From Isoetes taiwanensis (taxonomy: Eukaryota > Streptophyta > Lycopodiopsida > Isoetales > Isoetaceae): 64,000 nt of DNA. The stretch is from NCBI GenBank assembly GCA_021234155.1, contig JAJEKV010000002.1, positions 13,498,314 through 13,562,313 on the forward strand, in the 5' to 3' direction. Under the pieces are notes generated by a model. It was not told the origin of the DNA. It did not search any database and saw only the letters and a list, made by a program, of their open reading frames with translations. The position numbers and the translations under genes were made by a program. This document shows, one piece after another, positions 27,064 to 64,000 of this stretch; the stretch's first letter is position 1, and each line of letters opens with the position of its first letter.

Positions 27064-27072
27064 TAATTTTTT

Positions 27073-28774: not shown

Positions 28775-28783
28775 TAATTTTTT

Positions 28784-29649: not shown

Positions 29650-30043
29650 TTCTGACAAATAATCCGACGTCATTGAAGATCCACGAAAAGATCCTGGACG
29701 CTTTTCCCGACACTAAATCGACTTCTTTTCTCGACGCTTAAATCGGACGCTCGACGCTTTTTTCTCGACGCTACTTTTTCTTCGACGCTTATTTCGACGA
29801 GAGCTTCACGCTTATTCCGACGCTTTTTCCGACGCTTACTTTTTCTCGACGATTTATGTGGACGCGACATTTAACATAAATTGGATGAATACCCGGATTT
29901 AAATATCTCGACGAAAATCGCCGAAAAACGCCGAAAGCAATCGCCGCGATATTCATCGCGATAAACGGGCCGTGCAAAAAATCTCCTCCGTGACATTCCC
30001 GACTTTATTTTCCGAATAATTAATAGTCATTCTCTTTGTAGTG
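29650..30043 (+). repeat. CACTA right subterminal repeat region (damaged)
   Basis: The counterpart of the clean motif block in spacer 2, but CTGACG is mostly written CGACG, CCGACG or TCGACG, and CGTCAG is written CGCCGAA and similar. The terminal 16 bases are nearly intact. The clean sequence style ends abruptly at about 29650. Confidence 0.8.
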
Positions 30044-30191
30044 GCTTCCCTGGCGTATAGACGCTTTGAACCTCGGTACCGATATGGATCTCATCTTTCT
30101 CATGGAGACATGGGAGCATGCCGGCACAAAGCACTGGACTGGCCGGGTTACCAACATTTCTGCCTTCACACTGCATGGTGATGTGTAGGGG

Positions 30192-30213
30192 AGCAATACG
30201 TAACTGAACGAAG
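30192..30213 (+). other. Oxford Nanopore ligation adapter left in the assembly
   Basis: GCAATACGTAACTGAACGAA plus the following G, preceded by A, matches 22 consecutive bases of the standard ONT Y-adapter (bottom strand, read 5' to 3'). It lies just before the N gap, in the middle of a LINE B endonuclease, where other copies have plain endonuclease sequence. It is not part of the genome. Confidence 0.95.
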
Positions 30214-30226
30214 CATACTGGTGGAA

Positions 30227-30250
30227 NNNNNNNNNNNNNNNNNNNNNNNN
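30227..30250. other. Assembly gap (24 N)
   Basis: The run of N joins two sequence pieces. Left of the adapter the LINE reads ..CCAACATTTCTG and right of the gap it resumes CGATCTTCAATGC, which is continuous in other copies, so little or no LINE sequence is missing if the join is right. Confidence 1.
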
Positions 30251-32207
30251 CGATCTTCAATGCAATGCGGAGACGGAGGGGTCATGGTGGAGTGGCTTGC
30301 TATCTGGGATATGGCACATTGGTTACCCTCGAGGAAGATGACGGACACAAGCGGTACTTGTGGGTTTAAGTGTGCATAATACCAGTGGCAGCCCTCTTTT
30401 ACGGCGCTGTTGTTTCCCTCAAGGCGAAGCACCTTCTATCGCGGCTTCACCCACGTCGCGGATGGGATGGACCCTTATGTCGATCCTATATGATGGCATC
30501 TGACAGCACCAGCAGTTGGGTAAGTCGTCCTTCTTGGAATTTCAATGCGGACCCGAATTAGAGCAGCCCATGTGACTTGACCCCTCGGCGGCGGAGTAAT
30601 CCTGCGGCTCGCCAACGAAACAGCACGGCCCACGGTCGATGACAGCGGGTCACTTTCGGCTTTAGCCCAGGCAGGTTATCTGCTATGTGGCATTTTTGAC
30701 CCGATAATTTGCAAGCGGCCTTTCCACGGTGGCCCGATTCGCCAAGTGCATGCGAGACGGGACAATCGGGGGTCTAGTGTAGTGGACTATGTTAGCGTAG
30801 TTGGGGAATGCGCCATCTCGTGGTCGTTTTCGGGTGAGCGCAGACTGATCGGGACGAGAGTGAGCTTCGGATCACCTCCGCTTTATTTGGACTGGTTTGG
30901 CAAGCGCGGAACCCTATGCACCAGCCCCTCGGCAGATCCTCGGTTGAAGGACTGGAATTATGAAATGATGAGGAAGGACTACGCCCGAGATGCTCATGGG
31001 CCACTCGGTAATTCTGCGAGACCTCCACACTAGAAGCGTGACGGACCGAGTGACCCGGCTATTACGGGATGCAGCGGACGAGGTCTTTAACGGGCCAACG
31101 TCGCCGCTTCGGGGATTAACCAACATTCAAGCGTAATGCCGATGGTTTGATCGCGGAGTGTAAAGCATAGCCCGGCAGCTCCGTCTGATACGGATCAATT
31201 TACCAGCGCATTTTCACACAGTACCGCGCCCATCGAAGGACACAAAGCGCCCGGTACCTTCCACCGAACATCGAGGGGAGATGTTGACTGCTGGACACTC
31301 ATCCCTCGAACCTTTAGAAGCGTAGCCGGAGTGCTTGAGAAGAAATTAGCCGACCTACGGGGACATCACGCAGGCGTGCGGGGCATTTTTACAGCAGCTC
31401 TATATGACCCGCCCGGGGGCGCATACGCCCATACCTGAGGGATGGCCCAGGCAGTTTCCGTGGGCGAGGATGTTGAGGAGGGCACGCAGCGGGCGGCTAA
31501 TGGGAAGCGGTGACCTCGATGGGTATCGCGGGCGGTTGCGCCGTCTCGTGAGGCAACCCGCTTGTGCAGTCCCTCACTACTGTTCAGAGCGTGCAGGAAG
31601 GTCTCCCGAACAATGGACCACAAAGCGGGGGTTGTTCCATTCACAGGCCAGGCGACCCACAACATCCGACCAATTCTGCGGACGATCATGGTAGGATTCG
31701 ATGTTGCCAAAGCTGTTGGGTGGCATTCTCGAGCAACCCGATTGACCGGTAGAGAAGCGGCCGGATGTCACGGTACCCTCACCTGAGGCGGGCTTTAGAC
31801 CATATCAGCGATTGACCATATCTTTACTTCGGGCGATTGAAGGCGGTGAATCATGTGAGGACTTGTATTCTTTGCTTTGTGGACCAGCGAGAAGGCTTTT
31901 GATCACGGTTCCCGGGAAAGGCATTAGGCTATTTGCGATCAGCCCGGGGCTCCAGCACTGTCGCGAGATGCCATATCACGGTGTATGAGGAAGTTGTTTG
32001 GCGGGATCGGCCGGCCAGACCAAGCATTCACGATGAAATTATCGAGTCCGTGAAGTTGCCCCTGCATAACACTTTTGGCCTCTACATTGTCGGTTAGAGC
32101 CACGGCTTCTTGAGCATGGGGGGATATCGGCTTTTGCCGAGTCATCGCCGGCTCATCTATCACGGACGATGTTAGCTGTTACGGAAGCTATCGCGGTCAC
32201 TGGATTA

Positions 32208-32260
32208 CGCGCGCGCGCGCGCGCGCGCGCGCGCGCGCACTTGCGCGCGCGCGCGCGCGC
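32208..32260. repeat. (CG)n run inside the reverse transcriptase
   Basis: Alternating CG of about 31 and 18 bases, broken by ACTT. At this place other copies have ordinary RT coding sequence (DALDTFC region). A basecaller artefact or a very local expansion; no other copy has it. Confidence 0.9.
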
Positions 32261-33588
32261 TGGGCGTTTGTCGATTTCTGGAACATCTTGGCGTCAATCT
32301 GGCCAAGACGAGGTGGTTCTCGCGCATATCCTCTTCCACGTCACCCCATGCCTCACGCACTCCACATATCGGGGACGGCACGTGGGCTGACACCCACCTA
32401 CAAGTACCTAGGGGTGGAGTTCCCTCCTCACTATTTGGGAGAAGCGTCTATCAAACTACTTGCTGAATTGGCCAATTGGTGAAGCGCTTTATGCCATCGC
32501 AGAACCATGATCTGGCCGAGCTCTATGATTGGGGCCATCGGTCCGCATCATTCGGAGCGGTGAGCACATCCTTAATGCGAGTCGGTTTGGGGCCGATGCG
32601 TCTCTTTGGCGACTGGAATGACTTGGAGGCAGTCACGAGGCATTTTGGCGCGGGCACTTGGGGTGAAACGCCGGTCCCCTATCAGGATTAAGCTGCGCGA
32701 GCTGGATTCTTGCAGCCGGTGACCCTTGATAGACACATCGTCTAATTTTTGAGAGAAGTGGTTACTATGGGTGATGCTTTCGGCTCCATAAACTGCTTGT
32801 GGCCATGGGTCGGCTTAGAACTGTTATTGGAGGTAAAGAGAGATCGATTAGTTCGCCCGGATGGAGCGTCGCGAGAACGCAGTCGTGCAATTAGACGCGG
32901 CGGCCCGATCGTGACAGCTGCGGGGAATTACCTAGGCAGCTTGTTTCCTTGGCAAAATGGGACCCGGCTCGACAGTCAAAATGGCCCATTAGGAGCACAT
33001 CAACCCCGTGTTAGCCGGGGCCGCAGCTCTACGCGTTCCCGGCTGCCCACAGCCAGACTCATTGCCTCCATTACGCGGTGCCCTGTCGCCGCGCTTCGAA
33101 GGCGAGGCGGTGGATTAAGGAGCCCGGGGCAGACTCTGTCGGTCTTTGTCAAGCGGGTGCCATTGAGAATGGAGTCTCACACTTTCGGAGTTGCCGGTGA
33201 TTGATCGGATCGGGCCAGGTACGCTCCCTTAGTCGCTGCTGGGACTTGCCCTTGCATTTCTTTGATGAACACCGCCGTCGATCGTGCCACGGGGTCGTAC
33301 ATTCGGGAGAATGCTGGACCTCGCGAGGTCACCTTTGCCCCGCGTTTGCCAGCTAATTAGGCACTACGGGTGTAGTGCATGGTATATATTTGGGTGTTTA
33401 CGCATTTTATATGTTAGGGCGGGTTGTCGGCCGGGCTGATTAATGGCGCCCGCGGTTTTTCCCTCGAAAACCCGCCGGAAGGGGGTTTTAACGGTAATCC
33501 AGCTAGCTGCGTTTTTGTAAGGTCCCACTTGGCCAGGTGAGTACTCCGTGGGCGAAATAAAGTACCTTCCTTCCTTCGCTTCCTTCCC

Positions 33589-33875
33589 GTAGTTGTTGGG
33601 TTTTATTTTTTGCACTTGTGGTTTTATCTTGTTTTATGCGCACTCTTTAGCGGTTATGCAGGTTATTAGGTTGTGCTACCATTATACATCATATTTGCTA
33701 TTTGGCAAATATAAAATAATGCTAACTGTCGGCCGCTCTTTCGGCCTTCATCGGCGCTTTTCACGGCTTTTTACGGCTACTTTACGGCGCTATTCCGGCT
33801 TGATATTTCGGCGGCAATTACGGCTTTTTACGGCTACTTTTCGTGATTTATGTGGCATATTCTAATATTCTAACC
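33589..33875 (+). mobile_element. Array spacer 4: flank plus truncated CACTA 3' end joined to ORF1
   Basis: Same structure as spacer 3. CTGACG motifs are written CGGC, ACGGC or TCGGC throughout. The junction GATTTATGTGG-CATATTCTAA to ORF1 is the same as at 23640-23655. Confidence 0.85.
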
Positions 33876-34470
33876 ACAATCGGTAGTTCGAGGCGTAATG
33901 CGGAAACGGCGGGGAAGTCGCCCACAACATCAGGCACGGTCACCGGTCGGATGACATTCCCGAGGCCGATTCACATTTCAGGCAGCGATCATGGGGCTCG
34001 GCGCCGAATTAGTGACCGCATTGTCATATTCCACGGTTCGCGGATACGCAGTCGCGTGATGCCATATATTAGCGCGAGGGCCGGATCTTTGAAGGGACAT
34101 CCACATCGTGGACGGGACCTCACACGATGCAGCGAGGAGCCGCTGACCGGGGAGCTGGTGGTCGAGGAGGCATTAAGCCACCAAGAGTGCGAGTTAGTTC
34201 AGGCGGGATGCATTTCGCGACTGACTGCTCTGCTGCGGACCATGACCCCAACCCTTGGTACCGCGGGCCATACCTTCTCTACCCGCGGCCCCTTCTCCAC
34301 GCTCTACTCCTGCTCCCTCCGCATTGCAGCCCTTTCGACCCACATCGCCTCCGGCTCATCTACTTCTCCCGCGCCGACCTCTTGCTTCCCGTCCTCCCCA
34401 GCATTTCGAGTGCGCATACCATCCTGGCGACAAATAGGAATTGTCTCGGGTGGTCTCATGGAGTGTCGAG
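33876..34470 (+). pseudogene. LINE B ORF1 3' part, second long unit
   Basis: Corresponds to 23656-24270. ORF1 RRM remnants (GSSRRNAE instead of VRGMPEQQ), RMTF, RIVIF and SLKGHPHRGRDLT are recognisable in a frame of 215 residues (33843-34490), which is open only because of compensating indels. It ends at the GCT target before the second CACTA. Confidence 0.72.
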
Positions 34471-37254
34471 GCTCACTACAAAGAGAGTAAGGTGTTTTTG
34501 TCGGAAAAATCGTGGATGGTCTAAAATAGACAATTGTCGGGGAGTCCCTCTTGGTGACGATTTACGAAGCCGAATATTATCGGCGATTGATTGTCGGAAA
34601 AATCGTCAGAAAAATGCGTCGATTCTTGGCAACGAATTAACCGAGGGGAAATCGTCCGGTTCTTCGGCGATTGAGTGTCGAAAAATCGTCGGTCGCTTTG
34701 TCGAAAAATCATCGAATTTTAATCATAGAAATCATCACAATTTTTCGTCAAAGAATCGTCATAATTTTACCGTCGCAAAATCATTCCAGTTTTTCATCAT
34801 TTTTTTCTTTTGTGAGGATCATTTGCATTTTGTTGGCGGATTTGCATTTTTATGCGCAATTCTGAATTTAAAGTACCGATTGCGCTTAGTCGCCGTTATC
34901 TATTTAGTAATGCTGAGTTTAGCATGAATGTAGGCTAGAAGTTATGAAGAAATAAGATTATCACGTAAAACCAAGAACTTCTTTAATTTTAAATGTAATC
35001 ATAGTTACATGTAACAATCTTTACAATGCCAACAAGAATAATGTGGCAAGATGCGTTCTTCAAACAATGTTCTATATTCCCTAAACAAGTGGCTGCAACA
35101 CCGCAGCCACCACAACAATAGAATATTGAAGCGAGCAATAGCAAAGTACGCTAGGATGAATGCACAAAGGAGCAGTCCCTCTTGATAAAGCCTTTCTATT
35201 CATTGCAGCTGCAACGTTTGATAAAACAACCCCCTTAACAATCGGACATTATGGTCAACTTGAGGCGATCAATTGACAAATCATTTTGAGAAAGAAAGCC
35301 AGTGATCAATTGACAAATCATTAAGGGGACCCAACCACCTTGCAGCAAAATTATGAACTTTCAAGGCCTCAAACATCTAAGCTTTATATGTCTATAAACC
35401 GATGAAAAATCAACAAGAGATAGAGATCAAGGTAGCGAACGAAGCTGATTATTTTCCTGGGGCAAAAAAATCTCATTGTTTTCTAGAGACTCAACCACCT
35501 TGTAGCAGCTCATAAAATTTTAAGACTTGAAATGTACTCCTTTATATGTCTATAGACATCACAGATTTATATGTCTAGGAACATACCAAAATCAAAAAAG
35601 AATTATCAAACATAGAGAATTAAAGTAGTGATGACCCCCAATTATGTGTCACAACTCTAGAATCAGCCAGTCAGCAATAGAAACATGGAAAGAAAGTCTG
35701 AGTTGTTCAAAGGCATAAGTTTCTATTTAAAGAGGCCTTCCTAGCATTCTTAGCTTTCAATATAGATGTAAATGTTTGTGCTATAAAATACATCCTCCTT
35801 TGCTAAAACCATAAAATACAACTACATAAAGCCGAGCATTACCTAAACAGCTCGCCCACCGCTTAAGCAAGCACATTACCTAAACAACTGCGGCTCCCAC
35901 CTTGACTGCATTGAGTGTAGTAAGGGATCCTACATAGCACCCTCTCTTGTAAGCTCTTCTCCAAAGTCTTGAAGAGATAAAAAGCATGAAAGATAAAAGA
36001 ACTAAAGCATAGACGTCTTATAGAAACAATATCAAGGAAACACAAGCTACTCCTTTGGTATATGGATATGCTTAGACTTTGTAGCATCAAAATACAACCT
36101 TATAGGAACAAGCATGTAACATGCATTTGGCGCTTTAAGAAAACATGTAAGCAGCATTTCTATTTTCTTACATACCTTAAAATTGTATCATGATGTCGAA
36201 GCTATTTCAGTCTTAGGTATATATACAAATCTGCCAAACATTACCATAAAAGTTAAACATTCTCCAACATGATTAGAGAGCATGAAGCTTGTTCTTGCAC
36301 CATAACCAAGGACATCTGTCTTTGTTATTCAATTTAATATGAATAAGTACAGCGTTAAAACTTTCCATGTGGCTGAAACTAAACATTCGGGCTAAAAGCC
36401 TATATATTACCATAGGCTAACCTGAAAATATGCACTCAACAATAATGAATTATTCCTGCCATTTTAGTGTCCACACTGCACAGGCTACAACAACAGGATC
36501 TGTTTGTCAATCCTGTTTGTCACAATTTTTTGGATCGGGGAAGGCCCATTTTGGATCTCTGTTTAGAAGCGCATTTATGAGCATTTAAGACCATTTTCAA
36601 CATCTTTCTAAAACTCTATCTTTTGCCAATGAGCAAGAATCTTGCAAATGTTTCACATTCTGGATCAAATATTATTTCTCAAATGTAGGTGTAAAACCAT
36701 AAGAACCAACCTGGTTTATTTGCTCCAACCTTCTGTATTTTGTCATGATCTGGCTGTAACCAGACTGAAGCCCAACAGCTGTCCGTTTTAGCACAAGTCT
36801 TCATCACCTTGGGTACAAATAGGCTTGTTTAAAGTCGTTTCAAAAGCACAAAGCCCTTTTCGGCGGCGAACTGGACCACCTGGTCTTAGTGCATCGGGTT
36901 CAGGCTATCTGCAGATGTGTCACCGGTCATTTTAGGCAGAAGTATTTACACAGTTAAGCACCTGAAAAAATGGCACTTGTTTTGGCTATCAACAACTGGA
37001 TCGACGCCGGAACATAGCAAATCGGTGACCTAACGGATCCGACAGGCTATTTTCGCATGGCATAGAACTCAGCAATTTTCGACTGCGAAAGCAGGCAGAT
37101 TCGACATGTATTTTGGCTGCTACCACTCCATTTGTTTGCTGCGACCACAGTGGCCGCTTAGCGTAGCCGGATAAATCCATTTTCATCTAACCATGCCCTA
37201 AAAATCGACCTTAAAAGGTTTTCAAATGTCAAACATTCACCATTATTAATTTTT

Positions 37255-38893
37255 GGGAAAGTTATAAAATACCGCCCATTTTATACAAAATTACTTAAAT
37301 GGCCCAGTATTTTTAATAAATTATGAAAATGCCCTCGTTTCTGGGACAAAAACCGAGACACATTCTACCTTCGTGCCAGATTACTGATCCATGCTACCGG
37401 TTTGATTCTTGGAACCTAATCATTGGCTTGAGACCAAGTATGATCAAGGGTTAAATTTGCATGGAAACCCTTCATTCTTTTGAAGGGCCTTTAAAAACCT
37501 TTCGGTTTTGAATGGCAATTTTAACATTGCCATTCTGCTGCATGGTAAATTGTTGGCTGCCATTCAATATAATAAAATTAACAAATTAACGAGCTCAATA
37601 ACAAACCATGGATTTGCTTTGTCGAGATATAATACTCAATGACTCCCCGTCGTACTTCAAATCAAGACTTCAATCAAAGTCGCGCCACGTTGCTTTTGCT
37701 GCTTTTGCTTTAGAAGATCGGGTACGCCACAAAATAATCGAGTTCATTGTAATGAAGCGCATGCGTATAGGCAATGAGATAGGGAGGAAGGTCAAAGAAA
37801 AGGCGGTCTGTCACCACTTAGATCAAAGAAGAGATGACAAAGGCAGGAAAAGGGGGAGGAAAGATTTTTAATTTTGCGTTCCAGCAATGGTGAAGTTTGC
37901 CAGGCTTTCTCAAATCGTGCACCACCACAAATTCCAAGCCAACCAACCAAAAACTATTTAATGCATAGTTGGTTAGATAATACATTTATGTATTGTCACG
38001 GACATTATACATCTGGATATGACAATGACAAATGATATTTGCATAAAAAAATATTGACATATAAATAATTAGAGATAAAATATTATATATATAATAATGT
38101 GTATAAAATTAGAAATTTTAAAAATGATAGCCATTAATTTGAATGGCTACATTATTACGCATTTAGGTTTGAATGGCACTTTTATGCAGCCTTTCTTTTG
38201 CATGGCTACAAAATGGAATTAATGGATTCTGCATGCGGAGAGCTCAGATGAACACTGCAATGTTCCAAATTTAACCCTTGAATGTAGTATGCAATGAGTG
38301 ATTCAACCGGCTTTATTTTCTCTATCTGGTTTTATTGCTCCCTCAGGACCCATATGCCTTGTTTTCTTAATCTTATAGAAACTTCGTAGAGATTTCTTCC
38401 GATACCTTCTTGAAATTGCTCGGTCTTGAAACCCATGGATAAGTGCTTGCTTAAAATCCCCTTTGTCCGGTTGCTACTTAAGTTCTTTGCTTTGATAAGA
38501 AAGCGTCATTAATCTTTGCCAAAGGAAAAATATAAAGCGGAGGTCTCGGTGCATGCGACCATTCTGGATTTATCATTCATTCTTTGCCGCTCTTGCATCA
38601 TGCAAGATTTCTATTAAGAAGCAAAAAGTAAATGATCAAAAAAAAAAAAACAACAAATCCTCGGGCATCGCATTTTGTGATGGAAATATTTGGAGCTTCA
38701 ACTTCTTGAGGCTCTTATTCGATTAAGCACGATATCTTTGGGCATAGCTTTAGAGCCATCTCTAATATCACAAGAGAGGAGCATCAAGGCATGCTTGGAG
38801 GAAGCATCCGTGCACAAATGTAGAATTTGTGGTCAATTTTTCTCTGTCACACAACAGGTGAGATGAGGGGTGCGGGAAGAAGCGTCATTTTCC
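37255..38893. mobile_element. MULE copy in CACTA copy 2, right end replaced
   Basis: The left terminus GGGAAAGTTATAAAAT is recognisable, but the right terminal inverted repeat (about 75 bases in copy 1) is replaced by ~34 unrelated bases (GTGAGATGAGGGGTGCGGG and following) before TCCTAATTTTTT. Either a deletion with filler DNA or faulty consensus. Confidence 0.8.
37445..38280. mobile_element. hAT-like copy in CACTA copy 2
   Basis: Both 15-bp termini (CAAGGGTTAAATTTG and its complement) are intact and the right duplication AATGTAGT (38281-38288) is intact. The left one reads AAGTATGAT, a corrupted form. Confidence 0.88.
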
Positions 38894-40133
38894 TAATTTT
38901 TTGGCAATAAAACCTTTGAAATATCATCAATATTTGTAAAAAGGTCCGCGTGTAGTCTTATATGACACTTAGGAAGCCAAATAGTTACCTACACCAGCAA
39001 TTCTAGAAGCGAGAAATAAGATTTAATTTTCTTGTCAAATATCATACTCCCAAATAGAAAGCAATTTGTATTTCTAGAATATTATTACTTATCTTTGTAA
39101 CCATTAAAACCATGCAATGCGGGGTTTGAACCTCTATTTGTGATTTGTGATCTTTAAAGAGCATTCTCGAGCATTTGCCAAATCGCGACTACAAATACGA
39201 TATATGGCTAAAAGTAAAGGTAATAAGCCTAACTTTTTTTGAAAACAATACTCGATATCATTAAGGATCACGAAGTTTGAAGGGTCAAAATATTCCCCAT
39301 TATCTATTTTCCCCAAAATACAATTAGAGTTATCCCCTAAGTAGTATTATTATTTGTTATCCATGTCATCTTCTTGTTTCTATCCATTGCCATCTTTCAA
39401 TCATTTGGTTCATGTATACCAACTTTGTCATATGTCTTGTTCCCAAATGGGCATCTAGCTTAGGAACTTGTGAAAAGGAAGTCTATCTTGAATTTCCTCC
39501 TATAATTACATCATTCCTTATAAGAATTTCAATAAAAATATATTCAATTATAGATATCATAGCTAGCATCGCGGTCGTTTGACAATTTAAAGAGCAACAA
39601 ACCTATAATACTAGCTGGGATGGAAATTTTCAAATTGTTTCCCCAAAACTTAATCAAGCTTGGTCAAATAATACATCATTAAGGCCGGATCAAGGATATA
39701 GCTTTTCAAAACATATAATGTATTCTAAAACGAACTGCTTAGATAGATGTTATGACTAAAATTGTAATAATGCTATCTTTTGACAAATGTCGGCTTTTAC
39801 GACAATAAGATCGGCGAAAGTCGGCTTTTCACGACACTAAATCGGCTGGCTCTTTGGCGCTAAATCTGGCCTTTCACAGCGCTTTTCTGGCTACTTTTAC
39901 GGCTATTTACGGCGATATTTCTGGCTTATTACGGCCTTTTTACGGCTACTTTTACGGCGGTTATGCTTGGCGCATATTCTAACATAAATTTCGGCGAATA
40001 ATCGGCCAGATATACGGCCATCGTCGAAGCGTCGAAAAAGCAATAATCGGTATTCATCAGCATAAGCGTCAGGCAAAATCCGTGAACACTCGGCGATTTT
40101 TACGACGAATTGTAGTCATTCTCTTGTGAAGTG

Positions 40134-43100
40134 GCTTCCCTTGGCGAGAAGGGGGCGGTTTGAACTCACGATGGCGGTAGATATGGATCTCATCTTTCTC
40201 ATGGAACATGGGAGCATCTTTGAGCCGCGGGCTACCTGATCTGCCCGGGTTACCAACGACCGGTCTTCAATACATGCAGACCGGAGGGTCATGGTGGAGT
40301 GGCTTGCTACTCTTAGGACAACCTTAGCACGATGATTTACCTCGAGAGAACAGACGGAACCCGTACTTGTGGGTTCCGTTATTGCATAATACGATGCTTA
40401 ACCCTCTTTTCTGGCCACTGCGTTATTTCCCTCCGCCGAGACAGCACCTTCTATGTAGCCACCCCGTCACGGATAGGGATGGATTCCCTTATGTCGATCT
40501 ATATGATGACATCACGGCAACACCGGCCAGTTGGGTAGGGTCGTCCTTCTTGGAGATTTCAATGCGGACGGGGAGTAAGAGCAGCCCATGTGACTTGACC
40601 CTGCGTGACGATGTCACGCGCAGCTGCGCCCCTTGAAGCAACTGGCCAGGGTGGATGACAGCCAAGGTCACTTTCAAAGCTTTGGCCCGGGGCAGGTTGC
40701 TCACGCTATGTGGCATTTTGACTTGATAATTTGCAATGGCTCACGGTGGCCCGATTCGCAAGTGCACATGCAGACGGGACAATCAGGGGAGGGTCTGGTG
40801 TGGTGGACTATGTGCACCGTGATTCGCCAGATATGCATCTCATCGATGCGTTTCGGGTGGGCACGGGCGATTCCGGGATAGGGAGATGCGACTTCCGGAT
40901 CACCTCCCACTTTATTTGGACTGGTTTGGCAAGCGCCCGGAATTTATATGCCAGCCCCTCGCCGATCCTCGGTTAAGGACTAGATTATGGCGGTGAGAGG
41001 ACTACGCCGAGATGCTCATGGGGCGCCCTCGATGGTCTGCGGACCTCCACACTGGAAGCGTGAGGGCGGACCCGGTACGGCCGGCTAATGCGGGATCGCG
41101 GCGGACCGGGTCTTTGGCGGACCCCTCGGCGTCGCTCGAGTCGACAACATTCAGCGTAACCGATGGACGATGCGAGGTATAGAAGCGCCAAAGCGGTAGC
41201 TCCCGGAATCACGATACGGATCGGTGCAGCTTACGGGGCCACCACGATGCAGCCCATCGGAAGGACACAAAGCGGTGCCTTATGACATGGGGAGATGTTG
41301 ACTTTCTTCGGACACTCATCCTCGAACCTTTTAGCGAGTGCCCGAAGGCTAACCCGACCCTCTGAGGGACATCACGCAGGGCGATTAAGGGCAGTACTTC
41401 GGCGGCTCTATGACCACGCCCGAGGGGCGCATCACCTTATACCCCACGGGATGGCCCCATTGGTTCGTGGGCGAGGATGTTGAGGGAGGCTGCAGCGAAT
41501 TTGGCTAATGGGCGGTGACCTCGATGGTATCGCGGGCGAGTTACTTAAATGGGCGGGGGGCAACGCTGATAGGTCCTCACTGCTGTTCAGCGAACGTGCG
41601 AGGAAGGTCTCCCCAGACAATGGACCACAAGCGAGGGTTGTTCCCCATTCACCGTGACCCACCTTTGTCCGATGTGCGGACTGATCATGAAGTGCGGTTG
41701 ATTGTTGCCAAACTGTTGGTGGCATTCTCGAGCAGCGAGTTGACCCGGTAGGCGGGAAGGCGTGGATGTCACGAGCAACCCTCACCGCAGGCGGGCTTTA
41801 GACCCGCCACTCTAGCGATTTGACCATATCTTTACACTTTACGGGCGATTGAAAGGCGAGATCATCGGCGGACTTATGTGCTGCTTTGTGAGACTTGGCG
41901 AAGGCTTTTGATCACGGTTCGGGGAAAGAGCGTAGGCTGGGCTGCGTCAGGGGCTCAATGCGGGAATGCCATACTCTGGTGTATGAGAGTTGTTTGAGGA
42001 TCGCGGTAGGCCAGACCAAGCATTCACCGATGAGTATCGAGGGAGGTCGATGAGTTGCCCCTCGCCAACACTTTTTGGCCTCTACATTGTCGGTTAGAGC
42101 CACGGCTTCTTGAGCATGGGAGATGGCATCTGAAGCTTTTGCACACCAGGTCATCCGCTGACTCATCTATCGCGGACGATGTTGGCACAGCGTACACCAG
42201 TATCACGGTCTCACGGATGCCCTAGACACATTTTCGGACTCTGATTATGCGGCGTCAATCAGCCAGACGGGGTGGTTCATATCCTCTTCCGTCACCCCAT
42301 GCCTCCTGCTCCACATAGGGGACAGCCTATAGACGACACCCACCTACAAATACCTAGGGGTGGAGTTCCCTCCCTCACTCTGGCGGGAAGCGTCTATCCG
42401 CTTACTTGAATTGACGGTAGGCAGCTTTATGCCATGCGGAATACTTGATCCTGGCGGAAGCTCTATGGTTAAGGGCCATCGGTCACATCACATTTCAGAC
42501 GAGTCGAGCTTTGTCATACATGCGGGGTGAGAGTTTAGAGACAGTCGTCTCTTCGCGACACGGAATGACTTGGGCGGAATGCGAGCATTTTGAAAGCGCG
42601 GGCACTTAGGGTGAAACAGCCGGTCCTATGGGATTGCGGCGAGAGCTGGATTCTTGCAGCTTCAGCGGGCAGCCCTTGATAGACACATCGTCTATTTTGA
42701 GAGAAGTGGTTACTATGGGTGATGCTTTCGGCTCCGCGCGGCTTACAACATGGCCATGGGTCGCAGCTTAGGGCTTTGTTGGAGAGGGTAAGAGAGATCG
42801 ATTGGATTCGCCCGAGATGGAGCGTCGCGAGAACGCAGATCGTCTGAGGTGGGCCACGGTAGATGGCGGCGACTGGGAAGACCTAGGCAGCTTGTTTCCT
42901 TGGCAAGCTCTGGGACCGGCAGCTCTAGAAACGAGTCAAAATGGCCCATTCTGAGCTTTATCAATAACCCGTATTGGCAGGCCGCGGCTCTACTGGTTCG
43001 GCTGCCCACAGCGGAGACTCGGTACCTCCATTAAATACGAGTGCCCACCATCTTACCGCTCGAGGCGGGCGGAGTGGATTGGGGAGCCAGCCGGAGCAGG

Positions 43101-51602: not shown

Positions 51603-54600
51603 GCTATGGCGAAGGGGGCAGTTTGAACTCGTGGCGGCCGATATGGATCTCATCTTTCTCATGGAACATGGGAGCATCTGCAGGCGAGCTTCGTCTAATA
51701 GGGTTACCAACATTTCTCGGTCTTCAATACGCAATACGGAGACCGGAGGTCATGGTGGAGTGGCTTGCTACTCTGCGGACAACCTTAACATTCGGTTACC
51801 CTCGAGGAAAGGCAATTGCCCACAAGCCGGTACTTGGCCAGGTTGGTATTGCATAATACCGGTGCTTAGCCCTCTTTTACGGCGCTGTTATTTCCCTCAG
51901 CGGTGACTTTACCTTCTATGCATGGCCACCCGTGCGGATAGGATGGACCCTTATGTCGATCTATATGATGACCTCACGGCCCGGCTTCCGAAGGTTGGGT
52001 AGAATTCGTCCTTGGAGATTTCAATGCGGACGGGGAGTAAATGACCCATGTGACTTGACCCCCTCATTGTGATGTCACAACGACTCATGCATGAGAAACA
52101 ACGTACGAGGGTCGGATGGCAGCCAGTCACTTTCGCTTTGGCCCGGGCGGTTGCTCTGCTATGGCATTTTGACTTGATAATTTGCAATGGCCTTTCCACG
52201 ATTGCTTGCGATTCACCATGAAGTACACACATCGCGAACCCGAAAAGGACAATCGGGGAGGGAGTCTAGTGTAATTGGACTATGTATGCTTTCGTAGTTA
52301 TAGATATACATCTCATCGGTCGTTCACGGTGGGCACAGAGCCGGTCGGGATGAGGTCGACTCGGAATCACCTCCGCTTTATTTGGACTGGTTTGGCAAAG
52401 CGGAGCCACTATGCTGACCCCTCAGCGTCCTCGGTTGAGACTATAGATTATGAAGCGGTAGAGGACTTCACAGCCGGATGCTCATGGACGCCCTCGGTAA
52501 TTACGGACCTCCACACTACCGTGTGAGCGGACCGGTGACTTAAGCTATTCACGGGATCGCGGTGAATGAGGTCTTTAGCCGGCCAGCGTCATGGCTCGAG
52601 TCAGTAACATTCCAGCGTAACCCGATGGTTTGATGCAGTGTAAAGCATAGCGGCGGCTTCGAATCTGATGCGGATCGAGGTGCCAGCCGCGGCGAGGCCA
52701 CCACGATGCAGCCCATCACGAGAAGGACACAAAGGCGGTACGCATACCGAACATCGGGGAGATGTTACGGCTGTTGGACGCTCATCCTCGAACCTTTAGT
52801 ATGGCAGAGTGCTTGGTAGCCGATACGGGGACATCACACGGTGAGCGAGTGCTACCCGTACGGCTCTATGACCTTGAGGGAACGCGCTCGCCCATACCCC
52901 GCAGGGATGGCCCCATTGGTTCGTGGGCGAGGATGTTGAGGAGGGCACCTTGGTACGGCTAATGGGAAGCGGTGACCTCGATGGTATCACCCGGTAGAGT
53001 TACTTAAATGGGCGGGGAACTGGCGGCATGCCGATCCTCACTACTGTTCAATGACATTGCGAAGGTCTCCCCGACAATGGACCACAAAGCGGGGTTGACA
53101 TTCACAAAGGCCGGGCGACCCACCTTTGTCCGAGCCCAATTCACCGGACGATCGCGGTAGGTGGTATTTGCCATTGTTGGTGGCATTCTCGGCAGCGGTT
53201 AAGCCAGGCGGCCCGGATGTCGCGAGCCCTCACCGCAGGCGGGGAGCTTTAAGGCCCGCCACTCAGCGATTGACCATATCTTTACCGCTGCGTGGGCGAT
53301 TGAAGGCGGTAGGAATCATCGAAGGACTTGTATTGCTTTGTGGACTTCAGCGAAGGCTTTTGATCACGGTTCCCGGGAAAGCGTAGGCTAGGCTGGCGTC
53401 AAGCGGAACCCGCTGCTGTCTTGAATGCCATATCACAGTTAATATGAGAGTTGTTTGTGGGATGCAGCGGCGGGCCAGCATTTCCGCAGTGAGTATCGGG
53501 GGTCAGCGGGGGTGCCTCGCCAACACTTTTTAGCCTCTACATTGTCGGTTAGAATACGGCTTCGCGGGCATGGGGGGATAGCATCACGACTTTGCGGTCA
53601 TCGCCAGCTCATCTATCGCAGGGCGATGTTGGCTGTTGGCCCACCCGAAGCTTCTCTGCGATCTCACTGGATTGCCCTAAGACACATTTTGGTAGAACTC
53701 TGGAGACATCGCGTCAATCTGGCCAAGACGGGGGTGGTTCTCGCATATCCTCTTCCGTCACCCCCATGCCTCCGCACTCACATATGGGGGCTGACTGTGG
53801 GCTGACCACACCCACCTACAAATTACCTAGAGGTGGGTTTACTCCTCCTTTCAGCGGGAAGCGATCCTATCCATGCCGAGGTGACAGCAAAATTTGGAAA
53901 GCGCTTTATGCCATCTGGAATAACGATCACCCGGTGAGCTCTGATTGGGGCCATAATTCCGCATCTGTTTCGAACTGATGCGAACTGTCATACATGTAGA
54001 AGTCGGAGTTTGGGGCCAGTGCGTCTCTTTGGCGACACGAATTGACAGGCAGGTCGAAGGCATTTTTTAGCCGCGGGCACTTGGGGTGAAACCGATCCCC
54101 TATCGGATTCTCTTTTGCGGAAACTGGATTCTTGCTTCAATGGGCAGCCCATGATAGACATCGTCTATTTTGAAGTGGTTACTATGGGTGATGCTCGGCT
54201 CCGCTGGCTACTTGTGGCCATGGGTCATAGCGGCTTAGGGCTGTTGGAGGTAAGAAGATCGATTAAGTTCGCCCGGTCGGAACGTCGCGGGAATTACCGG
54301 ATCGCGTCACAATTAGACGCAGTGACCCGATCGTGGCGACTGCGGAAGTACCTAAGAGCGGCTTGTTTCCTTGGCAAAGCTCACGGGACCCCGGCTCTAG
54401 AAACAGTCAAAATGGCCCATTACAAAGAGCATCAGCCCGGTGTTAGCCGGGGCCCGCGACTCTACACCTGCGTTCCCGGCTGCTTTACTGAAAGCGGACT
54501 CATTGCCTCCATTATACGAGGTGCCACATGCCGCGTCGAGAGGCAGGCGAGGTGGATTGGGAGCCCAGCGGAGGCGGAGCTCTGTCGGTCTTTGTCAAGC

Positions 54601-55027
54601 GGGTGCCATTGAGGGAATGAGTCTCCACACTTTCGAGTTGCCAGTTGATCGGATCGAGACCGAGTGCATCCCTTAATCTTGCCGGGACTTGCCCTTGCGA
54701 TTTCAGCGATGAACCTGCCGTCGGTCACGTGCCGAATTAGGTGATACGATGAGTCGCCGGACTGCGAGTCACCTTTGCCCCGCTGGCTGCCGCTAATTAA
54801 GGCACTTCACAGTTGTGGTGCATGGCCCGTATATATTTGGGTGTTTACGCATTTTATATGTTAGGGCCGGTTTGTGTTGATTCGCGCCCGCGGTTTCCCT
54901 CGAAACCCGCCGGAAGGGGTTTTAGCGGGCGATGAAATCCGGCTTCTTTAGCGTTTTTAACATTAGGTCCCATAGACCGATTGGTCTCCGTAGACGATAA
55001 AATTACCTTCCTTCCTTCCTTCCTTCC
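51603..55027 (+). mobile_element. LINE B copy 8
   Basis: EN traces MAADMDLIFLMEHGSIC and RVTNISRSS near 51631; the shared CCATGTGACTTGACCCC stop site near 52048; RLTISLPLRGRLKAVGIIEG near 53270; motif A GFDHGSR-like; TPTYKLPRGGF near 53808; and a 165-residue frame (54115-54612) with VVTMGDARLRW, KMAHYKEHQPGVSRGP and RWIGSPAEAELCRSLSSGCH, one of the better C-termini among the late copies. Tail (CCTT)n 55006-55027. Confidence 0.86.
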
Positions 55028-55472
55028 ATAGTTGTTGGGTTTTATTTTTTTTGCGCCCTTGGTTTATCTTGTTTTTATGCCCCGCCTCTTTATGAGTTAT
55101 GCAGGTTATTCGGTTATTACTACCATTGTACATCATATTTGCTATTTGGCAAATATGAAATGTCTGCAGCTTTGTCGGCGGCTCTTTCGGCGCTAAATCT
55201 AGCAGCTTTTCCTGGCAGCTTTTTCTGGCGCTACTTTTACGGCTATTTGGCGATATTTACGGCGCTTATTAGAGCGCTTTTCGGCCTTCTTTTACGATGA
55301 TTTATGTGGCGCATATTCTAACGCGGAAATTTCTGTGAAATATCTGACGATAAAATCGTCGGAAAAACATCGAAAAAACAATCATCGATATATTGTCGGC
55401 ATAAGCGTCGGTGAAATCTCGTAGACGCACTTTCGGCGATTTTCGACAATTAATAGTCATTCTCTTGTAGTA
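55028..55472 (+). mobile_element. Array spacer 8: flank plus CACTA 3' end
   Basis: Same organisation. The terminus reads TCTTGTAGTA, one base off the CACTA consensus. Confidence 0.83.
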
Positions 55473-58400
55473 GCTTCCCTTGGCGGAAGGGGCGGTTTGA
55501 ACTCCGTGGCGGCCGATATGGATCACCATCTTTCTCATGGAACATAGGGCATCGCGAGCCTGAGGCTACGATCTGCCGGGTTACCAACATTTCGATCTTC
55601 AATGCGCAATGCGGGCCAGGTCATGGTGGGGAGTGGCTTGCTACTCTTAGGACAACCTTAGCACATTCGGTTACCCTCCGGAAACCGAACCGGACACAAG
55701 CGGTACTTGTGGGTTACGTGTGCATAATACGGTGGCAACCCTCTTTTAGCGCTGCTTCCCTCACTTATGACGGCACCTTCTATCGCGGCCACCCGTCACG
55801 GATAGGATGGACCCTTATAATACGATCTATATGATGACATCACAGCCTTTACCAATGATTAGGTAGAATTCGTCAACTTCTTGGGAGATTTCAATGCGGA
55901 CGGGGAGTAGAGAGCAGCCCTTCTTGACTTGACCCCTGTTGTGATGTCCGCATTTCGCTTCCCGCGAAACAACGCGGCCCACGGGTAGGATGACGGCGGA
56001 GTCACTGTTTGTCTTGACGGTTAACTCTGCCTGTGGCATTTTGACTTGATAATTTGCAATGGCTCCGCGATTGGCGATTCTACGCCCAAGTGCACGGCAC
56101 GAGCCGGAGACGTCGGGGAGGGTCTAGTGTACGGTGGACTATGTGCTCGTGGTTAGCGGAATATGCATCTCATCGGTCGTTTCCGGTTAGGCCTGAGCCG
56201 GTCGGGATAGGAGGTCGACTCAGATCACCTCCCGCTATTTGGACCTGGTTTGGCAAACATGCGGACCCCCACTATCTTGACCCTCGAGTCTCCCGGTTGA
56301 GACTAGATTATGGCGGTGAGGACCTCGCGAGGTGCTCATGAACCCTCTGATAGAGTGCAGACATCCACTGGAAGCGGCGTGACCCGGACCAAGTGACCCC
56401 GGCTATTACGGGATCACGGCCGGGCCGGGTGCCGGATAGCGTCGCGCTCGGTCAGCAACATTCCCAGCGTAACCGATGGTTTGATCGCGAGATTAACCAA
56501 AGCGCCAGCGGCGGCTCGAAGTCACGATACGGATCAATTGCCAGCTTTACTGGGCCACCCACCGCGATTACCCAGCCCATCGAAGGACCTGAGAAGTGGC
56601 GGTACCTTGCCGAACATCGAGGGGGAGATGTTGACTTCTTTGGACGCTCATCCTCCCGAACCTTTTAGCCCTTGAGGAGTGCCGAAGGCCAACCCGATAC
56701 AGGGGACATCACACGGGCGTTAAGAACGATGCTTACCCATACGACTCTATGACCAGCGAGGGGCAGCATACATATACCCCACCCGGGATGGCCCCATTGG
56801 TTCGTGGGCGGATGTTGAGGAGGGCTGCCAGCGGGTACGGCTAAATGGAAGGCGGTGACCCCTCGATGGTATCACCCGAGGCGAGTTACTTAAATGCGTG
56901 GGGCAGCGCTTGTGCCGGTCCTCGCATTCCAGAGCATTTAAGGAGATGCTCCCGAACCAATGCTGGACCCACAAAGCGGGGTTGTTCCACATTCTCTAGG
57001 CGAGGCGACCCACAGCATCCGGTAATTACGGGCGATCATGAATTCGATTCGATTATTTGCCAAAGTTGTTGGTGGCATTCTCGGCGGCCGGTTGACCGGT
57101 AGGCGGGAAGGCGGCGAATGGAAGAGCCCTCACCGCAGGCGGGAGCTTTAGACCAGCCACTCCAGCGATTGACCATATCTTTGCTGCGGGCAGCGATTGA
57201 AACGGCCCGGAATCATCGGCGGGACTTACATCGTGGCACTTTATGGACTTGGCGAGCTTGTCGGTTCGAGAGGGAAAGGCGTAGGCTAGGCTACCGTCCA
57301 TTGGGGCTCAATTTTGTCGCGAATGCCGTATCTGAGATTAATATAGAGAGTTGTTTGGCGGGATCGCGACCCGGCGAATGGCATTCACGGTAATTATCGG
57401 GGGTCAGCGGGTTGCCCCCTCTAGCCAACACTTTTGGCCTCTGCGATTTGATCGGTTCAGAATGCACGGCAGGCATGGAAGTCAGCATACGGCTTTTGCA
57501 CCGGTCATCCAGCCAGCTCATCATCGCGGGCGATGTTGGCTCTTTGGCCCACACCCGAAGGAAGCTATCGATCTCACTGGATGCCCTAGACACATTTTTA
57601 ATGGGGCTCTGAGGACATCGTAAAATGCGGCCAAGACCGGGTGGTTCTCATATCCTCTTCCGTCACCCCATGCCTCCACTGCACTCCACATATGGGGGAA
57701 TGACTGTGGACGACACACCCACCTACAAGTACCTAGAGAGTTGGAGTTCCCCTCCTGGCGGAATCTATCCTTTGAATTATTATTGTTGGAAAGCTAGCTT
57801 TAAGCGCTATCTGGGAATACTTGATCCTGAGGCCGAGCTCTATGATTGGGGCCATCGGTCCCGCATCACATTCGAGAGACTAGCTGGTCGAGGCACAATC
57901 CTTAAATGAAGTCGAGGTTTGGGGCCCGGTGATCTCTTCGTGACACGGAATGACTTGGAGCAGGTCACGAGGCATTTTTGGCAGACACTTAGAGATTGAA
58001 ACCTTGAGTCCCCTATCAGTTACAACTGCGGTGGATTCTTAAACCCGGTGAGCAGCCCCTTGATAGACTATACGTCTATTTCGGAAAGTGGTTACTATGG
58101 AATACTCGGCTCCCTTTTTGGCTTACAACATGGCCATGGAGTCCCTTGTGGCTTAGGAGCTGTTGGAGGGAGTAAAGAATTCACGGTGGTTCGCCCGGAT
58201 GGAGCGTCGCGAGAACTGAGATCTCGTCTGTGAGTGGAGCACGGCTGACGATCGTGGCGACTGGGGAGTACCTAGGCAGCTTGTTTCTTGAAGCTCACGG
58301 GACTGGCTGACTCTAGAACAGAGTCAAAATGGCCCATTAAAGGAGCACATCAACCAGGTATTGGCAGGAATTTTATTCCTAGTTCCAATTTGCCCACAAT

Positions 58401-58941
58401 ATGAGACTCATTGCCTCCGATGCATACGAGGTGCCCACCATCTTCGCATCGAGACAGGCGGTGGTTAGAGCCCAGCCGGAGCCGGAGCTCTGTCGGTCTT
58501 TGTCAAGCGGGTGCCGTGAGGAATGGAGTCTCACACTTTCCGGTTGCCCGGCGTTCGATCGGATCGGACGAGATGCGGCTCCCTTGAATGCTGCGGACTT
58601 GCCCTTGCATTCTTTGATGAACCTGCCGTCGATGCACGTGCCAGGGTGTTACGACCGGAAGTCACTGGACCTGCGAGGTCACCTTTGCCCCGCTGGCTGC
58701 CGCTAATTAAAATTTTCACGGGTGTGGTGCATGGCTGTACATATTTAGGTGTTTACGCATTTTATATGTTGGGGCCGGTTTGTCGGCCCGGTACATTAAC
58801 GCCGCAGTTTTCCCTCAACCCTTGAGTGGGGGTTTTTAACCAGGCGATGAAAATCGCTTCTTTGGATTTTTGTATTGGGTCCCATGGAGCCGATTGGTCT
58901 CGATGGGCCGATAAAAGTACCTTCCTTCCTTCCTTCCTTCC
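55473..58941 (+). mobile_element. LINE B copy 9
   Basis: EN traces near 55510-55760; WTMCSWLAEYASHRSFPVRP near 56140; finger and RT traces near 56850-57190; TPTYKYLESWSSP near 57712; YDWGHRSRITF near 57840; VVRPDGASREL near 58185; knuckle-region ELCRSLSSGC near 58480 and DLRGHLCPAGCR before the stop near 58706. Tail ends at 58941. Confidence 0.86.
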
Positions 58942-59369
58942 ATAGTTGTTGGGTTTATTTTTGCACTTGTGGTTTATCGCATTTTTATGCATACTAACCC
59001 GGTTAATACAGGTTATTCGGTTATTAACTCACCATTATACATCATATTTGCTGGCTGTAAATATGAAATGTCACAACTTTGTCGGCGCTCTTCGACTTCG
59101 AAATCGGCTGGCTTTTCTGGCGGCACTTACGGCTACTTACGCTAATTTCGGCGATATTTAGGCGGCTTATTAGAAACGCTTTTACTGCTTTTACGGCGAT
59201 TTATGTGGCGCGTATTCCACAACATAAATTTCTGACGAATAATCGACAGAATATCGGCGTGGCATCGTCAGAAGAAATAAGAACATATTCATCGGCATAA
59301 GCGTCGGGCAAAATCTCCATTAGACACTCGGCGATTTTTACGACAATTAATAGTCATTCTCTTGTAGTA
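58942..59369 (+). mobile_element. Array spacer 9: flank plus CACTA 3' end
   Basis: Same organisation. The terminus reads TCTTGTAGTAG and the following GCTTCCC is corrupted to AAAGCCC, so the exact join is uncertain by a few bases. Confidence 0.8.
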
Positions 59370-62300
59370 GAAAGCCCTTAGCGAAGGGGACAGTTTGAAC
59401 TCCGTGGCAGCCGATATGGATCTCATCTTTCTCATGGGACATGCAGAGACATCTTTGAGCCTGAGCTACCCTGATCTGCCGGGTTACCAACATTTCGATC
59501 TTCCAATGCATGCGGAGACGGAGGGGTCATGGGTAAGGTGGCTGCTGCTCCGGGATAACCTTAGCGCGATGGTTACCCTCCGGAAGACGACGGACACAAC
59601 CCGGTGCGTAAGGTTCGTGTGCATAATACGGTGGCAACCCTCTTTTACGGCGCTTTGTTATTTCCCTCATGAGGCGGCACCTTCTATAGCGGCCTGCCGT
59701 CACCGGATAGGATGGACCCGCATATGCGTCTATATGATGACATCTGACACCAATGATTGGGTAGAATTAGGTCCTTCTTGGAATTTCAATGCAGACTGAG
59801 GAGTAAAATGAAGCCCTTCTTGACTTGACCCCCTGTGATGTCCTTGCCTTCACGCCCGCTGAAACAACACAGCCCACAATTCGGATGGCGGCCGGGTCTG
59901 GCGCTTTGGCGGGGGCAGTTGCTCCTGCTATGTAGCATTGACTTGATAATTTGCAATGGCCTTTCCGCGATTGGCCGATTCGCAAGTGCACATGCCAGAT
60001 GGAACAATCAAGGGGAGAGTCTAGTGTAGTGGACTATGTGCTGCGTAGTTAAGCAAGATATGCATCTCATCGATTCGTTTAGGGTGGGCGGGGAGCCCGG
60101 TCCGGGATGAGGAGAGATGACTCGGATCACCTCCGCTGGCCCCAGACCTGGTTTGGCAGAGCGCCCGGACCCCACTATGCCAGCCCTGTAGGTCCCTCGG
60201 TTGGAGACTATAGATTATGAGCGAAGCCAGAGGACTCTGTAGAGATGCTCATGGGCGCTCCCGGTAATTGCGGACCTCCACACTATAGAGCAGCGGGCGG
60301 ACCAGAGTGACTTAAGCTAATACGGGGATCACGTGAGACGAGGTGCTTTGAATTTTACGGCGTCGCTCGGGTCCGGTAACATTCCAGCGTAACGATGGTT
60401 TGATCACGGGTGTAAAGCGGCGGCTCCGTCACATTCTGGATCAAGGTACCAGCTTGCGGAGGCCACCACCACGGTAGCCCGCCGAAGGAGCACAAAGCGG
60501 TCACCTTGCGAACATCGGGGAGATGTTGGCCTGCTGGACCTCATCTCCGAACCTTTTGGCCTTGAGAGTGCGCCCGAGAAGACCAACCCGATATCGGGGA
60601 CATCACACGGGCAGTGGGAACAGTACTTACGGCGGCTCTACCATGACCAGCGGGGGCGCATCGCCCATACCCCGCGAGGGATGGCCCCCATTGGTTCGTG
60701 GGCGGATGTTGAGGAGGGCACCACTGCTTGGTGGCAGCTAATGGGAAGGCGGTGACCTCGATGGTATCGCGGGGCCAGGTTTACTTAAATGGAAGCGGTG
60801 GCAAGCGTGCGGTCCTCACTGCACATTCCAGCGAGGCATTGCGGAAGGTCTCCCAGACAATGGACCGCAAAGCGGGGTTGTTCCCATTCTGGGCAGGCGA
60901 CCCACATCGGCCAATTACGGACGATCATAGTGATTCGGTATTTGCCAAGTAGGTGGCATTCTCGGCGTGATTGACCCGGTAGGCGGAAGGCGGCGAGATG
61001 TCGAGCCCTCCTGCAGGGGCTTTAGACCCGCCACTCAGCGATTGACCATATCTTTACTGCTACAGAACTGGCGATTGAAGACAGCCGGAATCATCGGCGA
61101 GGACTTGTATTGCTGCTTTGGACCGGGGAAGGCTTTTGATACGGTTCCGGGGAAAAGGCGTAAGGCTGGAAATTGCGTCCAGCTGGGGCTCCGGCTGCGT
61201 GCGAGAATGCATATCTGATTAGCTGTAGAGAGTTGTTTCGGGGATCACCGTGGCAGACAAGCATTCACCGATGGTATCGGGGTCCGGCAAGGGTTGCCCC
61301 CTCACCGCCAACACTTTTGGCCTCTACATTGTCAGTTAGAGCCACGGCTTCGCGAGCATGGGGGGATGGCATCTGACTTTTGCACGGGGTCATCAGCCGA
61401 AGCTCATCTATCACCCGGGCCGATGTTGGCTCAGCGGCCCACACCCAGAAGCTATGCGGTCTCACTGGATGCCCCTAGACACATTTTTGTCGGAGACTCT
61501 GAGGACAATGCTTGGCGTCGATCGGCCAAGACGGGGTGGTTCTCATATCCTCTTCGCGTCACACAGCTGCCTCCGCACTCATGCTCGGGGACAGCACGGC
61601 GGGCGAGCACCACCTACAAATTACCTAGGGGTGGAGTTCCCTCCTCACTCGCTGGGAGAGCGTCTATCGGCTTCTTGGTGACCCGTGGTTTGGAAAGCGG
61701 CTTTATGCCATCACCGGAACAGGTCTGGCGGAGCTCTCTATGATTGGGGCCATCGATCACATCATTCCGGGCAGTGAAGAACATCATGCAATGCGAAGTC
61801 GAGGTTTGGGGCCAGTCGTCTCTTTAGCAGCGACCTGGAATGGCTGGAAAGGCAGTCACGAAGGCATTTTGTACACGGGCACTTAGGGTGAAACCTTGAT
61901 CCCTATCGGTCTAGCTGCGGGGAAGCTGGATTCTTGCGGCTTGGTAGGCGTATATGATAGACAATGCGTCTATTTTCCCCGGAAAGTATGGTTACTATAG
62001 GTGATGCTTTCGGCTCCACTTTGGCTTACTGTGGCCATGGGTCCTTGGCGGCTTAGGAGCTGTTGGAGGGTAGAGATCGATGGATTGCGCCCGGATGGAG
62101 CGATGCGGGAACGCAGATCGCGTCTGAGGTAGGTACAATGACGATCGTGACAATAGCGGGGTACACAGAGCAGCTTGTTTCCTTGGCAGAAGCTTTCACG
62201 GGACCGGCATCTAGAAACGAGTCAAAATGGCCCATTACAAGAGCATCAACCCGTGTTAGCCAGGGGCCCGCGGCTCTACTGCGTTCCCGGTACGCCCACT

Positions 62301-62818
62301 GGCGGACTCATTGCCTCCATTATGCAGTGCCCACCATCTTATCGAGGCAGGCCGAGGTGGATTAAGGAACCCAGCGGAACAGACTCTGTCGATCGCGTCA
62401 AGCGGGTGCCGTGAGAATGGAGTCTCACGCACTTTCGAGTTACTTGATTAGGTCGGATCCGGGCGGTCATCCTTAATCTTGCCGGACTTGCCCTTTGTTT
62501 CTTGATGAACACCCGTCGGTCACGATGCCACAGAATTCGTGCATTGATGCCCCGGACACAAAGAGGTCACCTTTGCCAGCACGGTGCCAGCTAATTAGGC
62601 ACTCTGGTGTAGTGCATGGTATATATATTTGGGTGTTCGCGGTATATGTTAGGACGGTTTATTAAATGGTGATTCTTTGCCCGCAGTTTTCCCTCGAAAA
62701 CCCTTGAGTGAAGTTTTTAACTTGCGAGGCGTGTCAAGCTTCTTTGTTATCAGTAAGGTCCACAGGCCGATTGGTCTCCGTGAATGATAAAAAGTACCTT
62801 CCTTCCTTCCTTCCTTCC
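59370..62818 (+). mobile_element. LINE B copy 10
   Basis: The frame 59395-59799 gives MNSVAADMDLIFLMGHAE, DLPGYQHFDLP and RVRFVCIIRWQPSF, the longest EN piece of the late copies. RLTISLLLQNWRLKTAGIIG and GKAFDTVPGKRRK (motif A region) lie at 60967-61218. HPGRCWL, RPRRGGSHILFASHS and the YLGVEFPPHS block are near 61400-61680. C-terminal traces QNGPLQEHQPVLARGPRLYC are near 62220. Tail (CCTT)n 62797-62818. Confidence 0.86.
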
Positions 62819-63260
62819 ATAGTTGTTGGGTTTTATTTTTGCACTTGGTTTATCTTGTTTTATGCCCTCTTTAACGGTTATGCGGGTTATTCGGTTATTG
62901 CTACCATTATACATCATATTTGCTATTTGGCAAATATGAAATACAGCTTTGTCACGGCCAGCTCTTTACGGCTAAATCTGGCGGCTTTCAGCTTTTTATT
63001 TCGCACTACGGTAGCTATTTACGGCGATATTTAAACTGATACGGCGCGCTTTCTGGCGCTACCGCACCCCGGCCCGATTTATGTAGCATATTCACCAACA
63101 TAAATTTACGGCGAATAATCGGCGAAATATCGGCGTAAAATCGTCGGAAAAGCGTCGAAATATCGTCGATATATTCATCGGCATAAGCGTCGAGGGCAAA
63201 ATCTCCGTGAACACTTTCGGCGGAGTTTTGACAATTAATAGTCGATTTCTCTTGTAAGTG
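62819..63260 (+). mobile_element. Array spacer 10: flank plus CACTA 3' end
   Basis: Same organisation, with the terminus TTCTCTTGTAAGTG carrying one extra base. Confidence 0.83.
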
Positions 63261-63986
63261 GCTTCCTTGGCGAGGAGACCGGTTTGAACTCGAGTAAGCC
63301 AGCCCGATATGGATCCTCATCTTTCTCAGCCAAGGGCAGGGCATCTTTGAGCCGCAGGCTGCGATCCTCTTAGGGTTACCAACATTTCTCGATCTTTAAT
63401 GCAATGCGGAGACGGAGGGTCATGGTGGAGTGGCTTGCTACTACCGGACAACCTTAACATTGATTTACCACTCCAGAGAGCAGAGGGAACTAACCGGTAC
63501 TTGTGGGTTAGTGTGCATAATACGATGGCAGCCCTCTTTTTCACGGCGCTGTTGAAATTTCCCTCGCAGCGGCACCTTCTATAGCCACCCGATCTTGGAT
63601 AGGATGGACCCTTATGTCGATCTATATGATGACCTCTGGCAGCAGCACCGGCAGTTGGGTAAGATTAGTCCTTCTTGGAGATTTCAATGCGGACGGAAAT
63701 TAGAACTGGCCCATGTGACTTGACCCCTACGGTATGATGTCTGCAGCTTCGCTGAAGCAACTTTAGCCCGCGAGGGTGGGATGACGAGGTCACTTTCGCT
63801 TCCCAGCGAGCGGTTGCTCCTGCTATGGCATTTTGACTTGATAATTTGCAATGGCCTTTCCACGATTGGCCCGATTCGCAAGTGCATGCGAGCCAAGGGA
63901 CAATCAAGGGGAGGGGTCTAGTGTGGTGGACTATGTGCTTCCGTAGTTGCGCCAAGATATGCATCTCATCGGTCGTTTCGGGTGGG
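63261..63986 (+). mobile_element. LINE B copy 11, cut by the adapter at the window end
   Basis: Endonuclease only: GWTLMSIYMMT/DPYVDLYDD near 63610, the CCCATGTGACTTGACCCC stop site near 63710, then ATCTCATCGGTCGTTTCGGG corresponding to HLIGRF before the sequence changes to adapter. Confidence 0.84.
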
Positions 63987-64000
63987 AGCAATACGTAATA
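63987..64000 (+). other. Start of a second nanopore adapter
   Basis: AGCAATACGTAA (63987-63998) matches the first 12 bases of the adapter seen at 30192, directly after LINE sequence and with the same preceding G. The window ends before the rest can be seen. Confidence 0.75.

Follow-up and report, generated by a model that had tools for sequence, protein, structure and literature searches.

Repeat copies in the 64,000-nucleotide window of Isoetes taiwanensis analysed here (the window is this whole stretch) carry changes at CAG and CTG words (CWG) which, judged from the sequence, are with near certainty a sequencing artefact and not mutation, and for which CHG methylation is the likely cause. 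Altogether we consider it highly probable that nanopore basecalling errors were left in the assembly, with CHG sites miscalled through a 5-methylated C.

The source genome comprised 1.66 Gb in 1110 contigs. The window contained a tandem array with units of roughly 3.8-4.0 kb, broken twice by the same ~5.3-kb element (copy A and copy B), for which the label "CACTA" was carried over from the first-pass annotation. The features referred to below are as follows.

11893..15702, forward strand: array unit arr1, strong CWG-specific damage, few other differences
15856..19680, forward strand: array unit arr2, CWG damage partial and blockwise
19834..23646, forward strand: array unit arr3, least damaged unit, taken as reference
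24285..29655, forward strand: CACTA copy A, clean
30192..30213, forward strand: nanopore ligation adapter word at the left contig end, exact 22/22 match
30227..30250, no strand: run of 24 N, inferred contig junction, sole N run in the window
30251..64000, forward strand: read-level nanopore piece with arr4, CACTA copy B and arr5-arr10, ending in adapter letters, then N
34440..39790, forward strand: CACTA copy B, damaged
63987..63998, forward strand: bases 1-12 of the adapter word, at the right edge of the piece

The 22-base word at 30192-30213, which we take to be the Oxford Nanopore ligation adapter, was found in 0 of 100 shuffles, and the final letters of the window were the adapter's first 12 bases plus two more. 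Genome-wide, 468 adapter words were found (at most one mismatch) against 0 for the reversed-word control; both this number and the six adapter loci that were fetched, where an N run began 7 or 8 bases past the word in 6/6, point to untrimmed contig ends. The 24-N run of the window began 13 bases past its adapter word, and the idea of a masked adapter hidden under these N was dropped since adapter words stand at contig ends, before N. Past the window the contig was all N in the four stretches sampled (28,000 bases) across the next 86 kb, which may be a gap. Given the adapter at its right end and the N runs, 30251-64000 has the appearance of a scaffolded read-level piece that closes at a + strand read end, and we infer that it is one single read. 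Pairwise identity was 68.6-75.3% for arr4-arr10, 84.8-87.1% for arr1-arr3 and 82.7-84.2% for the dispersed copies L010-L012, and homopolymers of at least 5 numbered 3.4 per kb in arr5-10 vs 6.6 in arr2-3. The left contig end (19965-30226) and the right contig start (30251-40324) matched at a constant offset of 10,286, so that copy B may be the second appearance of one CACTA locus through an unmerged contig overlap rather than a real second copy.

The first-pass annotation had described CAG/CTG-specific damage in 29650-64000, and most of its word examples were confirmed. CGTCAG occurred 20 times before and 6 times after 29650 while CGTCGG went from 0 to 14, CTGACG fell from 36 to 3, and both CACTA-interior word pairs were present (CAGAGGTCTCAG at 28369 and CGGAGGTCTCGG at 38538; CTAACAGATCC at 26846 and CTAACGGATCC at 37030). 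The change of CATCAGCAT to CATCGGCAT was a weak example, with 2 before and 1 after for the former and 1 and 3 for the latter. Within the CACTA pair CAG was damaged at 40/60 and CTG at 29/70 words, compared with 20/144 for CAT and 15/78 for CTA, and a tally by trinucleotide placed CAG/CTG first among 32 strand-merged classes in arr1, arr2 and arr5-10, so that the errors were concentrated at the methylation motif.

For arr5-10, a word entered the loss counts if it was conserved in 3 or more of the 4 comparison copies. The initial comparison copies, arr2 and L010-L012, proved to be partly damaged themselves, and 23 dispersed copies were therefore used for CWG and control losses in the array, for CG gain and for class ranks. 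In arr5-10, CAG was lost at 148/180 sites vs 25/54 for CTG, ACG at 70/84 vs 42/120 for CGT, CCG at 136/210 vs 73/168 for CGG and CGC at 122/174 vs 59/126 for GCG, with little strand difference for CAT (64/342) and ATG (85/342). Reverse-complement words were thus hit unequally, where equal damage would be expected of a process acting on both strands. In the CACTA pair, ACG (15/20) and CGC (10/15) were as badly damaged as CAG, and ATG was damaged at 15/102. It follows that CWG is not unique in the read-level piece, and the claim that only CWG words were hit is wrong for 29650-64000; that nearby non-CWG words stay intact fails as well, control words being lost at 28-37% per later array copy (27-32% when pooled, at three thresholds). 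The damage of CG-context words on the + strand, and the lesser effect on CTG than on CAG in this piece, count against the CHG explanation. No sign of a Dcm-aware basecaller shielding CCWGG was found at the few sites available, either in the array (CCAGG 6/6, CCTGG 14/18 lost) or in the CACTA element (CCAGG 1/1, CCTGG 1/3 lost).

A purer CWG footprint was found outside this interval, upstream and in other CACTA loci. Using words present in 60% or more of the 23 dispersed copies, with other words dropped before counting, arr1 had lost 26/34 CWG words (76%) vs 31/400 control words (8%; p=3e-19), and arr2 14/34 (41%) vs 21/400 (5%). Under stricter support (80% and 90%) the CWG losses were 14/16 and 8/9 in arr1 and 5/16 and 4/9 in arr2. 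The density of CAG plus CTG was 34.9 per kb in arr3 vs 20.2 in arr1. Because its background error is low, arr1 was taken to be a multi-read consensus, in which case the errors survived into consensus-quality sequence. Damage was thus not limited to the later copies, and the first-pass description suits arr1 and arr2 (11893-19680) better than its own interval: its basecall origin and CWG enrichment stood, while the interval also holds read noise and CG-context errors and is more strongly affected on one strand.

Seven CACTA loci outside the window were tested. Five of them (L004-L007, L018), which represent four elements as L007 and L018 overlap on one, had lost.35-.67 of CWG words vs.08-.21 of controls, while no significant CWG excess was seen in L003 and L008. 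CAG/CTG ranked 1 of 32 classes in L007 and 1 of 28 in L018. In L004, L005 and L006, where CG-containing classes came ahead of it, its ranks were 2, 2 and 3, and in L003 and L008 it ranked 4. A weaker CWG excess was also present in the 23 dispersed array copies (167/712 vs 749/9097 control words lost), where 37 of the 167 lost CWG words were of deamination type.

Lost CWG words often gained CG, at 17/26 in arr1, 8/14 in arr2 and 104/180 in arr4-10, against 4/31, 2/21 and 137/879 for lost control words; under stricter word support the share in arr1 was 6/14 and 3/8. The CpG observed/expected ratio was 0.83 in arr3 and 0.98 in arr5-10; for the CACTA element, copy A had 0.57 and copy B 0.75. On the preferred account, nanopore basecalling errors persist in the assembly, with 30251-64000 as a scaffolded read-level piece; beyond ordinary read noise, CHG sites would be misread through 5-methylation of their C in these transposons, a context foreign to the basecaller. 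The outcomes suggest that a basecaller taught methylated C chiefly as CpG would tend to report CG at mCAG/mCTG. Polishing would have cleared these miscalls only in stretches to which accurate reads could be assigned, so that CWG damage would persist in patches in other copies.

Within copy B the loss of CWG words depended on position. In the middle, which corresponds to 24901-27300 of copy A, CTG was lost at 2/30 and CAG at 12/28, compared with 27/40 and 28/32 at the ends; losses in middle and ends, respectively, were 78/424 and 101/492 for control words, 101/585 and 142/852 for AT-only words, and 13/24 and 20/28 for CG-context words, the last difference not being significant. The limits of middle and ends were chosen after viewing the data; in a scan over all copy B intervals a CWG result as extreme was reached in 0/200 permutations, and for thinned control words in 96/200. 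Among 19 words lost at the left end of copy B, L004 keeps 16 while L005, L006 and L007 lose 16, 15 and 16, and in the middle L004 loses 17/33 words that copy B keeps. Family words lost in some copies are thus kept in others, so the word alone does not decide the damage and the error is tied to a local state, for which CHG methylation domains would be the simplest that fits the on/off pattern.

It is rather unlikely that patchy polishing alone sets this pattern, with CWG errors present everywhere in the draft and surviving where accurate reads were unplaceable. Such a process would account for the blockwise retention and loss of CWG words in arr2 and in outside CACTA copies and for neighbours that differ on one contig (L003 without excess, L007 damaged), and it may add to the on/off pattern in the cleaner copies. 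However, it tells where errors remain and not why CWG is affected, and the middle of copy B retains its background error, as the AT-only words show, so that it was not polished. We give even less weight to a basecaller word bias without methylation, in which a model poor at CAG/ACG-type words is exposed by unpolished sequence. One-strand damage to ACG, CGC, CCG and CAG in the raw piece would be expected from it, as would the raised loss of purine-rich words such as AGG (117/216), but identical family words would then not be missing from one copy and intact in another, nor would CTG and CAG differ as they do, at constant background error, between the middle of copy B and its ends.

The differences between the two CACTA copies were polarised with outside loci L003, L008 and L015-L018, of which L018 was later found to be damaged itself. 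An outside base was available at 397 differing sites; 363 of these agreed with copy A, 10 with copy B and 24 were ties, so the changed copy is the second one, and the 36-fold asymmetry is not that of clock-like mutation. Hypermutated second copies, or CpG decay that gave the clean copies CAG from an ancestral CGG, are hardly credible and were rejected: deamination leads naturally from CGG to CAG, and 36/712 CWG words in the dispersed array copies are CGG/CCG, but outside copies hold the CAG form at CAG to CGG sites by 19 to 1, indels and double changes are frequent among the outcomes, the strands are unequal and adapter words lie in the sequence. The polarity, the adapter words and the strand asymmetry likewise upheld the earlier view that basecalls and not biology are at issue.

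The artefact may preserve a faint map of CHG methylation. More tentatively, deposited nanopore plant assemblies could keep a readable CHG methylome, written as spurious CG at CAG/CTG, with near single-molecule on/off domains in unpolished stretches; on that same tentative reading the ends of copy B would be CHG-methylated and its middle largely CHG-free yet CG-methylated. If this is true, spurious CG gain inflates CpG counts in transposons.

Nanopore errors at methylation motifs are already established for bacteria. About 70% of the consensus errors of the ONT basecallers then current were attributed to Dcm motifs by Wick et al. (2019; PMC6591954). As here, a 5mC context missing from training gave systematic miscalls that survived consensus; that case concerns the bacterial CCWGG motif, whereas here CAG/CTG in general is affected in plant repeats and CG is often gained. 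In Listeria, modification-mediated nanopore errors at GCAGC and GCTGG (PMC10687267) were also motif-bound mismatches at CWG-containing words left after polishing, although they arise from bacterial modification systems, unlike symmetric plant CHG methylation. Generic basecallers were reported to be less accurate on plants, with plant DNA methylation blamed in general (PMC9749173); the text shares the methylation-blamed loss of basecalls, does not use the word CHG, and its relevant passages give no word-level footprint. Nanopore telomere errors (PMC9414165) resemble those described here in being systematic, strand-specific miscalls, but they are repeat-calling errors, and "methylation" occurs once in that text. 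In a search of titles and abstract openings that covered few subscription papers, CHG-specific miscalls in plant assemblies were not found described.

Errors of this kind imitate transposon divergence, add indels and create false CpG sites; estimates of transposon age and studies of methylation would be biased by them. If the CHG link is right, badly polished stretches could be recognised simply by an excess of CAG/CTG-to-CG changes between copies of a repeat, and where only FASTA exists the same excess would give a crude methylation map.

The ~3.9-kb array units were arranged head-to-tail at 11893-63986. They were called LINE-like from two sub-threshold Pfam matches in 2/5 scanned ORF fragments (Exo_endo_phos, 24.4 bits with a cut-off of 24.5; RVT_1, 25.6 bits with a cut-off of 29.6), and belong to a family that is large genome-wide, with 7396 first-look candidates, 40 of which were scored. 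Within the read-level piece, array alignments break at CG runs near 32206-32260, where ~26 CG dinucleotides stand in a run (TRF 32208-32260) and a second CG run follows close behind; these may mark a stalled basecaller or a join.
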